64,000 bases of DNA, taken from NCBI GenBank assembly GCA_904396495.1, contig CAJFOJ010000004.1, forward strand, positions 1-64,000. Direction: 5' to 3'. Below the pieces are notes generated by a model, which was not told where the DNA came from, made no database searches, and saw only the letters and a program-made list of their open reading frames with translations. The stretch comes from an uncultured Oscillospiraceae bacterium. GTDB taxonomy: Bacteria; Bacillota; Clostridia; Oscillospirales; Ruminococcaceae. Of this stretch, positions 891 to 54,805 are shown one piece after another. The position numbers and the translations under genes are program-made. Positions within the stretch are counted from its first letter, which is position 1. Every line of letters starts with the position of its first letter.

Positions 891-1472
891 TTAATAATTC
901 CGGATTAGAGAAACGACCTTCCCCAAAATCGTCAATTGTTCTACGATAATTGGCTCAAAATCCGGGTTTTCCGGCATCAAACGGAAACTCTTTTTATCCT
1001 TATAAAACCGCTTGACTGTCGCCTCGTCTCCAATTAGCGCAACAATGATTTCTCCATTACGACAAGAAGGTGTCTTTTTGACGATGACGATATCCCCATC
1101 TAAAATACCGGCATTCTTCATACTTTCTCCCCGTACGTGAAGGGCAAAGTAGTCCTTAGAATCTCCCCTTAGGTTGAAAACAGGAATAAAATCCTCAACC
1201 TCTTCAATGGCAGTAATCGGAATTCCGGCAGTTACTGTGCCCAACAAAGGGACGCTAATGGAACCGCTAGAGGGCAGTTTTATAGTGCGCTTTTTAAACT
1301 CATCTTTGACAATATACCCTTCTTCAGTCAGACGTTTTAAGTAATAGTGTACAGTGGAAGTGGAGGGAATCCCCACCTCGCGGCAAATTTCCCGCACAGT
1401 GGGGGAAATGTTGTAATTTAAAATACACTCCCGAATGTACTCGTATATTTTTTGTTCCTTGTCGTTTAACAT
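891..1472 (-). CDS. lexA: LexA repressor (SOS response)
   Basis: LexA represses DNA-damage genes and cleaves itself when RecA is activated. The 193-residue protein has the N-terminal winged helix-turn-helix (about 1-65). The self-cleavage bond is Ala82-Gly83 in VTAGIP, the catalytic serine is Ser117 in RGESM, and the lysine is Lys154 in ATVKRF, so the protease dyad is complete. The length is close to the Gram-positive norm of about 205. The ATG start has AAGGAG upstream. It lies 15 bases behind a trkA-like gene on the same strand and is probably co-transcribed with it. I see no clear GAAC-N4-GTTC box directly in front of it. Confidence 0.97.
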   Translation of the reverse strand: MLNDKEQKIYEYIRECILNYNISPTVREICREVGIPSTSTVHYYLKRLTEEGYIVKDEFKKRTIKLPSSGSISVPLLGTVTAGIPITAIEEVEDFIPVFNLRGDSKDYFALHVRGESMKNAGILDGDIVIVKKTPSCRNGEIIVALIGDEATVKRFYKDKKSFRLMPENPDFEPIIVEQLTILGKVVSLIRNY

Positions 1473-51937: not shown

Positions 51938-52516
51938 TTGTTTAAGCGCTTTATACGCGGCCTTTTGGGGCTATATTTCGCCTTGCTGCTCTGCGGGGGA
52001 AAATCGGTTCCCGAATTGTGTTTTGAAAATATGCCTCCCCCACAAAACGCCTCTTTTTCCCCGATCTGTACGACGATGCCCCTTGCCCTCCCCTTACAGG
52101 AGGCCCGCCTCACCTCCCCCTTTGGGTATCGCTACCATCCGATCAGCGGGCAATTGGATTTTCATTATGGTCTGGATTTAGCAGCACCGGAAAAAACGAT
52201 GATTTTTGCCGCAGTGGGAGGAATTGTCCAAGTAGCCGACACTCATGACAGCTACGGAAATTATTTAGTCATCGATCACTACAACGGTTTTTCCACCTTG
52301 TACGCCCATTGCAGCAAATTGCTTGTCCAGAAGGGAGACCTGGTTGGAAGGGGAGAAAAAATCGCCCTGGTAGGACATACGGGAGAGGCAACAGGCGATC
52401 ATCTTCACTTTGAAATCCGTTTACACGGCATTCGGTACGATCCACTGTGGATTCTGGGCGACGGGGAAAAGCTCACCCTGATTCCGGAACCGGAATTGGC
52501 CCAAACAACCGATTGA
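51938..52516 (+). CDS. M23 peptidase, SpoIVFA-like
   Basis: The 192-residue protein has a membrane helix near the N-terminus (about 5-25) and an M23/LytM domain with FHYGLDLAAP (H and D zinc ligands) and GDHLHFEIR (HxH). TTG 51938 follows AAGAAGGA by 8 bases. Directly followed by a site-2 protease gene, it matches SpoIVFA-SpoIVFB, where the M23 protein holds the forespore-membrane protease in check. Unlike the degenerate Bacillus SpoIVFA, all zinc ligands are present, so it may still cut peptidoglycan. A stand-alone wall hydrolase is the alternative. Confidence 0.78.
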   Translation: MFKRFIRGLLGLYFALLLCGGKSVPELCFENMPPPQNASFSPICTTMPLALPLQEARLTSPFGYRYHPISGQLDFHYGLDLAAPEKTMIFAAVGGIVQVADTHDSYGNYLVIDHYNGFSTLYAHCSKLLVQKGDLVGRGEKIALVGHTGEATGDHLHFEIRLHGIRYDPLWILGDGEKLTLIPEPELAQTTD

Positions 52517-52540
52517 TCTTAAAAGAAAGGGCCGTTGATA

Positions 52541-53134
52541 ATGCTGTCTTTTCAGTTGGGAAAGGTCAGGGTCTATATCTGGTTTTCCTTTGTTGCCGTT
52601 GTTTGCCTTTTTTTTGCCATCGGGCAAAACCCGTGGGGTATGTGGTGTATCAGCGCCAGTATACTCCATGAATTAGGCCATTTGGCGGCATTTTTAGTAA
52701 AAAAGTGTCCTCCGTTGGAGCTTCACTTTGAATACAGTGGAATCCGGCTGATCCCCAAAAGGCAGATGTACCCTATCAAACGAGAAGTCTTTTTTCTGAT
52801 CAGCGGAAGTGCGGTGAATTTTATCTGCTTTTTGGCATTGTGGCTGCTAAGGCTACCGGTTCCCGCCTTTTTCCACCTGATTTTAGGTTTTTTTAATCTT
52901 CTACCTCTTCAGGGCCTCGACGGCGGGCAAATCCTTCAGTTGCTACTAGATTGGAAATTTGATCCGCGGATGGGTGCGTCCATTAGCACAATGATTTCAT
53001 GGATCGCCGATTTTTCCCTTGTTATAGGCGGCTTTCTCCTGTTTTGCAGAACCGGAAATTTTACCCTTTTACTGATTGTCATCTATTTTCTCATTTTGGG
53101 TTTCACTACTGATAAAAAGGTATCTAGTGGATAA
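52541..53134 (+). CDS. Site-2 protease, SpoIVFB-like (M50)
   Basis: An intramembrane zinc protease of about 197 residues with about 6 helices. HELGH in ILHELGHLAAF is the metal site, and NLLPLQGLDGGQI is the second family motif with the aspartate ligand. SpoIVFB cleaves pro-sigma-K during sporulation; the close M23 neighbour supports this. ATG 52541 or TTG 52535 could be the start; AAAGG is 10 or 4 bases upstream. If true, it implies that this is a spore former or a recent relative of one. Confidence 0.83.
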   Translation: MLSFQLGKVRVYIWFSFVAVVCLFFAIGQNPWGMWCISASILHELGHLAAFLVKKCPPLELHFEYSGIRLIPKRQMYPIKREVFFLISGSAVNFICFLALWLLRLPVPAFFHLILGFFNLLPLQGLDGGQILQLLLDWKFDPRMGASISTMISWIADFSLVIGGFLLFCRTGNFTLLLIVIYFLILGFTTDKKVSSG

Positions 53135-53331: not shown

Positions 53332-53895
53332 TTGAACAAGAAGTTAAGTTTGATTATCGCAGCAATTATGCTCACTGCCCTTGCAGTCTCTAGCTGTAAC
53401 AACAGTGATACCCCGTCTGAGCCCAGCTCTAGTGATACTTCGGTTTCCCAGCCCTCCAGCGAATCGGAAGAGGCACCGGAATCTTCTTCCCCGACCGTAC
53501 AGATTTATGACCCCGAAACCCAACAGGTTTCTAAAGTTCCCGTGGAAGAGGGAGAAAGCAACGCGGCAGCAGTCACCGATGAACAATTGATTGAAATTCT
53601 CAACGACCGATTCGCCTTTGAGGCAGGGGGAAACGAATTTAAAATCATCATCAATTCCATTGAGGAGGAGGGAACAGGCCTTCACATCGATTTTGCCGGC
53701 AATTCCATTCCAGCCGTCTCCATGGGCTCCACAGACGAAAACACTTGCTTGATTTCGATTGCAGAAACCCTTCTCCAAAATCACCCTTCCTGCTCAGAGG
53801 TGTATTATTCCATCGACGGAGGGGCCTATATGTCCGGCCACATTGAACTGGATATCAATGAACCCTTCCGGTACGATTCTAAACTTGCCCAATAA
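53332..53895 (+). CDS. Secreted lipoprotein of unknown function
   Basis: The 187-residue protein has a signal peptide with lipobox AVSSC (cysteine near 22). A Ser/Glu/Pro-rich linker (about 25-65) is followed by a compact domain of about 110 residues with ILNDRFAF and VYYSIDGGAYMSGHIEL. The last stretch is reminiscent of the GerMN sporulation/germination domain, but similarity by eye is weak. TTG 53332 follows AGAAAGGA by 8 bases. It is placed after the SpoIVF pair but has its own promoter. Confidence 0.8.
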   Translation: MNKKLSLIIAAIMLTALAVSSCNNSDTPSEPSSSDTSVSQPSSESEEAPESSSPTVQIYDPETQQVSKVPVEEGESNAAAVTDEQLIEILNDRFAFEAGGNEFKIIINSIEEEGTGLHIDFAGNSIPAVSMGSTDENTCLISIAETLLQNHPSCSEVYYSIDGGAYMSGHIELDINEPFRYDSKLAQ

Positions 53896-53937: not shown

Positions 53938-54699
53938 TTAGTGACAATGTCCGCCGCAATGATGTTCTTCCCCACAGTGGTGCTCCTCGCCGTGATGGTG
54001 ATCACAAGTCGCGTCATTATTAAACAGCAGGCTACCGTTAATATAAGCGTGAACAGCCCCATCCGCTGTCCCGCTGACGCCTGCCGCCAGTTGAACACCA
54101 GCTTGTCCAAGGGCCACTCGTGCTCCCGCTCCGATGCCGCCGCAGATGAGCAAATCCACCTGGTTCTGGGACAGCAATCCGGCTAAAGCGGAATGTCCGT
54201 TTTCACCGGCGCTTAATACCTGCTTACCGATGATTTCCTTTCCCTCCACGTCAAACAAGGTAAACTCCTTAGATTTTCCAAAATGCTGAAAGACGTTTCC
54301 ATTTTCGGTTGGTACTGCGATTCTCATAACCTTTTCTCCTTTTTTCAAATGCTGCTTCAAAGGCGGCTTTCCTGTCGCTCGCCGGCACCCAGAACAGTTA
54401 TTTGGAGGCCGGTCACAAATCGAGTAGTTTCCCCCTTCGATTTGCAGCGTATTTCCGTTTATTAGCGCCCGGGCCAGTTTTTGACGGGCAGAAGCGTAAA
54501 TGCGCTGGACAGTAGGGCGAGCCACATTCATTTGGTTTGCGCACTCTTGCTGGGTACAGCCCTCTAAATCCATGAGACGGATGGCCTCAAATTCTTCCAC
54601 TGTCATCTGAATCACAGCGGGATCAGGCCCGTCCAAAGCGCCGAAGCGGCGGCATTTGGGAAGGGCACACACCCTTCTACATTTCTGTGGCCGCGGCAT
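53938..54699 (-). CDS. DUF134 helix-turn-helix protein fused to NifX-type cofactor-binding domain
   Basis: The 253 residues hold a DUF134 putative DNA-binding domain (about 1-95; MPRPQKCRRVC and CTQQECANQMNVARPTVQRI as helix-turn-helix). A cysteine cluster with CDRPPNNCSGC follows. Next is a dinitrogenase iron-molybdenum cofactor-binding (NifX/NafY-like) domain (about 125-225; RIAVPTENGNVFQHFGKS, LICGGIGAGARVAL), and a tail of His/Cys repeats for metal. Such fusions are seen in anaerobes without nitrogenase and are thought to sense or carry iron-sulphur or metal. ATG 54699 follows AAGGGG by 8 bases. A near-perfect 24-bp palindrome covers its promoter, which suggests autoregulation. Confidence 0.9.
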   Translation of the reverse strand: MPRPQKCRRVCALPKCRRFGALDGPDPAVIQMTVEEFEAIRLMDLEGCTQQECANQMNVARPTVQRIYASARQKLARALINGNTLQIEGGNYSICDRPPNNCSGCRRATGKPPLKQHLKKGEKVMRIAVPTENGNVFQHFGKSKEFTLFDVEGKEIIGKQVLSAGENGHSALAGLLSQNQVDLLICGGIGAGARVALGQAGVQLAAGVSGTADGAVHAYINGSLLFNNDATCDHHHGEEHHCGEEHHCGGHCH

Positions 54700-54724
54700 C
54701 AGCATCACCCCTTGTACAACAATC

Positions 54725-54748
54725 TATAATGAACATATGCTCATTATA
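54725..54748. promoter_or_regulatory. 24-bp palindromic operator over the DUF134-NifX promoter
   Basis: TATAATGA (54725-54732) is mirrored by TCATTATA (54741-54748) around AACATATGC, with one mismatched pair in total. It includes the -10 box on the minus strand. The core GAACATATGCTC differs by one base from the Gram-positive LexA box GAAC-N4-GTTC and also resembles ArsR-type sites. Confidence 0.75.
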
Positions 54749-54771
54749 TACCCAAACCGTTTTCTTGTCAA
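54743..54771 (-). promoter_or_regulatory. Consensus promoter of the DUF134-NifX gene
   Basis: On the minus strand TTGACA (54771-54766), 17 bases, TATAAT (54748-54743): a perfect match to the sigma-A consensus, covered by the palindrome. Confidence 0.88.
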
Positions 54772-54775
54772 ATTG

Positions 54776-54805
54776 AAAAGAGGAAGCCAAATGGCTTCCT
54801 CTTTT
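54776..54805 (-). terminator. Terminator of the purine operon
   Basis: AAAAGAGGAAGCC (54776-54788) and GGCTTCCTCTTTT (54793-54805) form a 13-bp stem two bases past the purD stop; the T-run follows on the minus strand. Confidence 0.9.

Follow-up and report, generated by a model that had tools for sequence, protein, structure and literature searches.

IscR is an Fe-S feedback repressor that regulates the Fe-S assembly genes together with its own operon. In Desulfovibrio vulgaris, the orp operons are controlled by sigma54, the enhancer-binding regulator DVU2106 and IHF (PMC3897727). Mrp/NBP35 proteins are Fe-S carriers (PMC6345978). For the DUF134 family (UPF0251, COG1342, PF02001), our literature search, which covered few subscription journals, found no functional paper and none on an operator sequence, in line with the original prediction that its ligand and targets are undescribed. 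The sole mention of UPF0251 was an insertion listed among the mutations of Thermoanaerobacterium rex strains after adaptation. A possible link to iron comes from Desulfovibrio alaskensis, where feoA, flavodoxin and Dde_3197-3199 change together (PMC10533852), Dde_3197 being a putative DUF134 protein. The family is widespread, scoring over the cut-off in 135 of 199 sampled Bacillota genomes.

Here, we analyzed a DUF134 gene in a stretch of 64,000 nucleotides (the window) from an uncultured Oscillospiraceae bacterium. ORF and Pfam analysis placed the gene on the minus strand at 53941-54699 (253 aa; stop codon at 53938-53940). We moved its start from the GTG at 54708 to the ATG at 54699, a choice based on the conservation of M-[AP]-R-P among orthologues, which keep the resulting N-terminus (MPRPQKCRR). 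The product had been described as a fusion with a His/Cys-rich tail, and both domains were indeed recognized on one ORF. The DUF134 domain (54418-54696, minus strand; PF02001, 72.7 bits against a Pfam cut-off of 27, and 74.4 bits in the genome-wide profile search) is a sigma-region-4-like helix-turn-helix with the recognition helix VARPTVQRIY. The NifX/FeMo-co-binding (ORP-like) domain, delimited with PF02579 and a model alignment, lies at 54040-54303 on the same strand (64.4 bits against a cut-off of 26.3, and 67.6 bits genome-wide). The tail (residues 232-253, CDHHHGEEHHCGEEHHCGGHCH) occupies 53941-54006, also on the minus strand. Profile searches of the 97% complete assembly found no further DUF134 or NifX domain besides the one of each in this protein.

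Structural comparison agreed with these assignments. Residues 15-83 of the predicted model superpose on sigma region-4 domains with middling scores (Z 6-7), and the protein also matches Sigma70_r4_2 (26.3 bits, cut-off 25.7). The NifX domain matches the ORP structure 2wfb (Z 16.6) and PH0822 (2yx6, Z 17.8). A sequence search of solved structures returned only NifX relatives and no DUF134 structure.

The promoter of the gene carries two perfect sigma70 hexamers, a -35 element TTGACA (54766-54771) and a -10 element TATAAT (54743-54748), both on the minus strand and separated by a 17-bp spacer; the perfect consensus promoter that had been claimed was therefore read at 54743-54771. The near-perfect palindrome said to lie on it was found at 54725-54748, a strand-symmetric 24-bp operator (TATAATGAACATATGCTCATTATA) in which a single pair is mismatched and which overlies the -10 element. 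A probable ribosome binding site, AAGGGG, follows at 54708-54713 (minus strand). Upstream, an inverted repeat followed by a T-run (54779-54802) forms the terminator hairpin of purD, which separates that gene from the fusion gene and indicates that the latter is its own transcription unit. A Ser-rich lipoprotein-like ORF with no Pfam match converges on the gene (53332-53895, plus strand), and at 51938-53134 (plus strand) the gene of an M23 peptidase adjoins that of an M50 membrane metalloprotease, in an order like the sporulation pair SpoIVFA-SpoIVFB.

Only one other 24-mer as palindromic occurs in the 64 kb, namely the purD terminator hairpin. Base composition predicts 0.14 such 24-mers, so that the palindrome is by itself only mildly improbable, and one could see it as a structural element of RNA or DNA, or as a chance event, unrelated to the protein. 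We give this explanation a negligible chance, because the palindrome is conserved in sequence across genera and families, stands in the correct register and has independent matches genome-wide. It is this conservation in front of orthologues that makes us judge the palindrome real.

Of 78 DUF134 genes, 59 had the hexamer CATATG in the 110 bp preceding them; among the 837 other ORFs of these loci, 18 did (p 1e-59). Alignment on CATATG produced a symmetric motif with a consensus of about TTATTGACATATGTCAATAA and the clade variants TGRGCATATGYYCA and TCGACATATGTCGA; around the kept CATATG, the half-sites of orthologues read TGAC, TCGAC, TGGGC or GTGC. Altogether, an operator was found for 98 of 108 related DUF134 loci, a count that includes five with the site before the first operon gene or further upstream, and was not found at the promoters of the remaining 10. 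A position weight matrix (PWM) run over about 1 Mb of loci returned, above 14 bits, 90 sites at DUF134 promoters, 9 elsewhere and 0 in shuffled sequences, with the risk of circularity that its training sequences had been picked for CATATG; several of the 9 fell in the same operons or at misplaced gene starts. The window palindrome scored 20.2, and the runner-up within the window 7.2.

The motif was also recovered outside the training set. Thirty phylum-level DUF134 loci contained 22 sites above 12 bits, distributed over 13 loci, where dinucleotide shuffles predicted 0.2; the other 17 had no operator within about 1.5 kb. An 18-mer pattern with one mismatch allowed matched 50 of 198 Bacillota genomes (2 in the reversed control), and by our hand count from the tables 47 of them were among the 139 genomes that have DUF134 and 3 among the roughly 59 that lack it. 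Among 30 matches that we fetched, 26 lay at DUF134, DUF5320, NifX or Mrp/NBP35 genes, and two more adjoined a Fur-family gene and a gene for a metallo-beta-lactamase fold. A second pattern, applied within the window's own family, gave 14/62 versus 3/84. The original prediction was to be given up if orthologues lacked the palindrome upstream, and it clearly passed this check.

The original prediction also pointed out that the core of the palindrome resembles a LexA (SOS) box, in which case LexA rather than the DUF134 protein would control the gene. Indeed, the core (GAACATATGCTC) is one base away from GAAC-N4-GTTC, and the LexA gene of the organism (PF01726) is located in the same window (891-1472, minus strand). 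However, none of the orthologue half-sites is GAAC, and what is kept is CATATG, whose centre falls where a LexA box would have its unconstrained N4. The sites follow DUF134, NifX, Mrp and DUF5320 genes and covary with the DUF134 recognition helix. Bacillus-type LexA boxes show no enrichment in this genome (2 matches, versus 17 in the reversed control) and none precedes lexA itself. With GAAC-N4-GTTC not conserved at the orthologous promoters and no sign of LexA regulon membership, we rejected LexA control, which we regard as highly improbable. In the part of the window upstream of lexA there is no GAAC-N4-GTTC, and this lineage may consequently use another SOS box.

The operator accompanies DUF134. 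Where DUF134 is not the first gene of its operon, the site shifts to the gene that is, such as Mrp (L122) or, recurrently, DUF5320 (L134, L158, L234, L254, L264, L265 and L266), a Gly/Arg-rich protein of unknown function (PF17253). In L187, the site stands before NifX, in trans. Across all domain columns, the strongest mutual information with the base flanking CATATG was found for residue 62 (alignment column 65), in the recognition helix after the invariant Arg: Thr pairs with A, and Ala or Gly with G. The closest covarying pair is L048 (VARAT with GGGCATATGCTC) and L087 (VARTT with GGACATATGTTC). When the tree was computed with the helix left out, 7 of the 8 independent pairs behaved as expected (sign test p 0.035), the independent changes being few and L160/L162 an exception. 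Residue 62 is accordingly put forward as a candidate specificity residue. By our reading of the sequence, it probably takes the place of the Glu by which sigma70 touches the -35 element, and the half-site TTGAC is similar to a -35 hexamer. Comparative evidence of this kind shows the identity of the operator and its tie to DUF134. The autoregulation proposed earlier is well supported computationally, since the palindrome is conserved in orthologues, the LexA core is not, and the sites track DUF134 loci.

We next considered the position of the operators. The related promoters are of the sigma70 type and most are close to consensus. The centres of 113 of 124 sites fell between the -35 and about +22 relative to the -10 centre, at discrete positions: -19/-18 (on the -35), -11 (in the spacer), +9 (on the -10, the class of the window operator) and +14 to +16. 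Centres on the -35, spacer, -10 and start correspond to the geometry of steric repression and make negative autoregulation likely; it is from this positioning that we infer repression. Alternatively, DUF134 bound to the palindrome could activate transcription, or both activate and repress it, an option that draws on the paired sites of some operons (about 27-44 bp apart) and on the poor -35 hexamers of a few promoters (TTGCTT, TTGATG). As most sites overlap the -35, -10 or start of near-consensus promoters, and the window promoter is a perfect consensus, we consider it rather improbable and retain simple repression.

In this genome, a scan by pattern (not by PWM) found the only good operator at the gene's own promoter. 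The single full-length Mrp ATPase (ParA family PF10609, E 3.8e-88), encoded away from the window (C25, L200), had no operator when we searched for one, and DUF5320 is absent. Further own-genome targets were rejected, as the next-best palindromes lie within genes or score low. A perfect 22-bp palindrome elsewhere in the genome (TTAGTTAGCATATGCTAACTAA; L010, C21:7853-7866; PWM score 9.9) is probably the operator of another regulator. With the regulator and the NifX carrier fused, the gene would control only itself here.

Other lineages revealed more of the regulon. Where it is not fused, DUF134 shares operons with Mrp/NBP35-type ATPases and NifX, for which 60 loci held 25 and 31 ORFs, respectively, and L154 carries a full ORP-like set of NifX/ORP and two MinD-type ATPases with 4Fe-4S inserts. 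Given these partners and the carrier function of Mrp/NBP35, the regulon is best described as one of metal-cluster trafficking. Fur-family genes lie within DUF134 operons or directly under the operator in L206, L208, L261 and L267, which suggests crosstalk with the control of iron or metals. A metallo-beta-lactamase-like gene is a possible extra member: by sequence resemblance, one lies directly behind a DUF134-NifX fusion (L175), and Pfam places another under the operator in a different genome (L257). In L209, a hybrid-cluster (prismane) protein gene is located directly behind an operator-bearing DUF134 gene.

The candidate ligand sites are the conserved Cys and His residues of the NifX domain, the tail and the DUF134 part. 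In 44 orthologues, C232, H234, H235, C242 and C248 of the tail are kept at 90% or more, and H139, H169 and C186 of the NifX domain are well conserved; so are C7, C11 (present in 94 of 108) and a Cys group behind the DUF134 domain, where 88 of 100 scored proteins have at least three Cys. Against a sensing role one could argue that the NifX domain is a mere metal or cluster carrier, whose level DUF134 holds constant by simple autorepression. DUF134 without NifX, as in many family members, has the same operator, and the linker to the NifX domain is of low confidence in the model (residues 107-121, pLDDT under 50). However, the widely conserved Cys of DUF134 and the occurrence of fusions in many lineages, including one separate distant lineage (L221/L222), speak against this explanation, which we hold to be unlikely without dismissing it, and we continue to prefer ligand-switched repression.

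Our model, which we regard as likely overall, is that the protein acts as a one-component autorepressor. Its N-terminal helix-turn-helix would bind the CATATG-centred palindrome over the -10/start region, probably as a dimer, and once bound would keep RNA polymerase from a promoter that is otherwise perfect. In Bacillota at large, the family would control a small carrier regulon consisting of itself, Mrp/NBP35 ATPases, NifX/ORP and DUF5320 proteins. An Fe-S or other metal cluster on the NifX domain, the His/Cys tail or the DUF134 cysteines would then probably switch DNA binding, creating an IscR-like feedback. We only infer the ligand and the switching; metal or Fe-S sensing is plausible, as it agrees with the domains and the gene neighbours, and we lean slightly towards it. 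More tentatively, and at somewhat less than even confidence, the DUF134 proteins may be one-component regulators of a new family, whose sigma-region-4 domain has been turned into a dimeric repressor that reads two inverted -35-like half-sites (TTGACATATGTCAA), with the NifX domain of the fusions sensing an Fe-S or heterometal cluster, a class not described before.

If our model is correct, this is the first DNA target and the first gene set for a widespread family of unknown function. What would be new is the operator and the regulon of a one-component autorepressor, a kind of regulator that is itself already known. The DUF134 family becomes testable at once, as there are now an operator, a compact regulon (Mrp/NBP35, NifX/ORP, DUF5320 and sometimes Fur) and a candidate residue for specificity; they also open a way into the regulation, in strict anaerobes, of the little-understood ORP/NifX metal-cluster proteins.

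How does this system compare with those already described? With IscR-type repressors it would share the logic by which the protein that regulates Fe-S assembly or carrier genes also governs the operon it is encoded in. In contrast, IscR carries an Rrf2 winged helix and DUF134 a sigma-4-like helix-turn-helix; Pfam and NCBIfam gave no Rrf2 match in the window protein, the operators are unrelated, and the DUF134 ligand is only predicted. With region 4 of ECF sigma factors the protein has in common the helix-turn-helix fold and sequence (Sigma70_r4_2), as well as a half-site, TTGAC, like the -35 hexamer. However, Pfam found only a region-4-type match in it (around residues 34-82) and no region 2; as the conserved site is moreover a palindrome on promoters, DUF134 is not a sigma factor. 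Some DUF134 operons, such as that of L154, share with the Desulfovibrio ORP clusters (DVU2103-2109) the core of NifX/ORP and two MinD-type ATPases. Whereas those clusters depend on sigma54, DVU2106 and IHF, the DUF134 operators cover sigma70-type promoters, and a related set of genes would consequently be under another regulator, DUF134. Finally, the ORP part of MrpORP (PMC6345978) is the closest relative of the window's NifX domain, matching NF041136 over that part only (81.1 bits, well below the cut-off of 450 for MrpORP itself). DUF134 shares its operons mainly with Mrp/NBP35 genes, and where MrpORP carries its ATPase, the window protein carries a DNA-binding domain.
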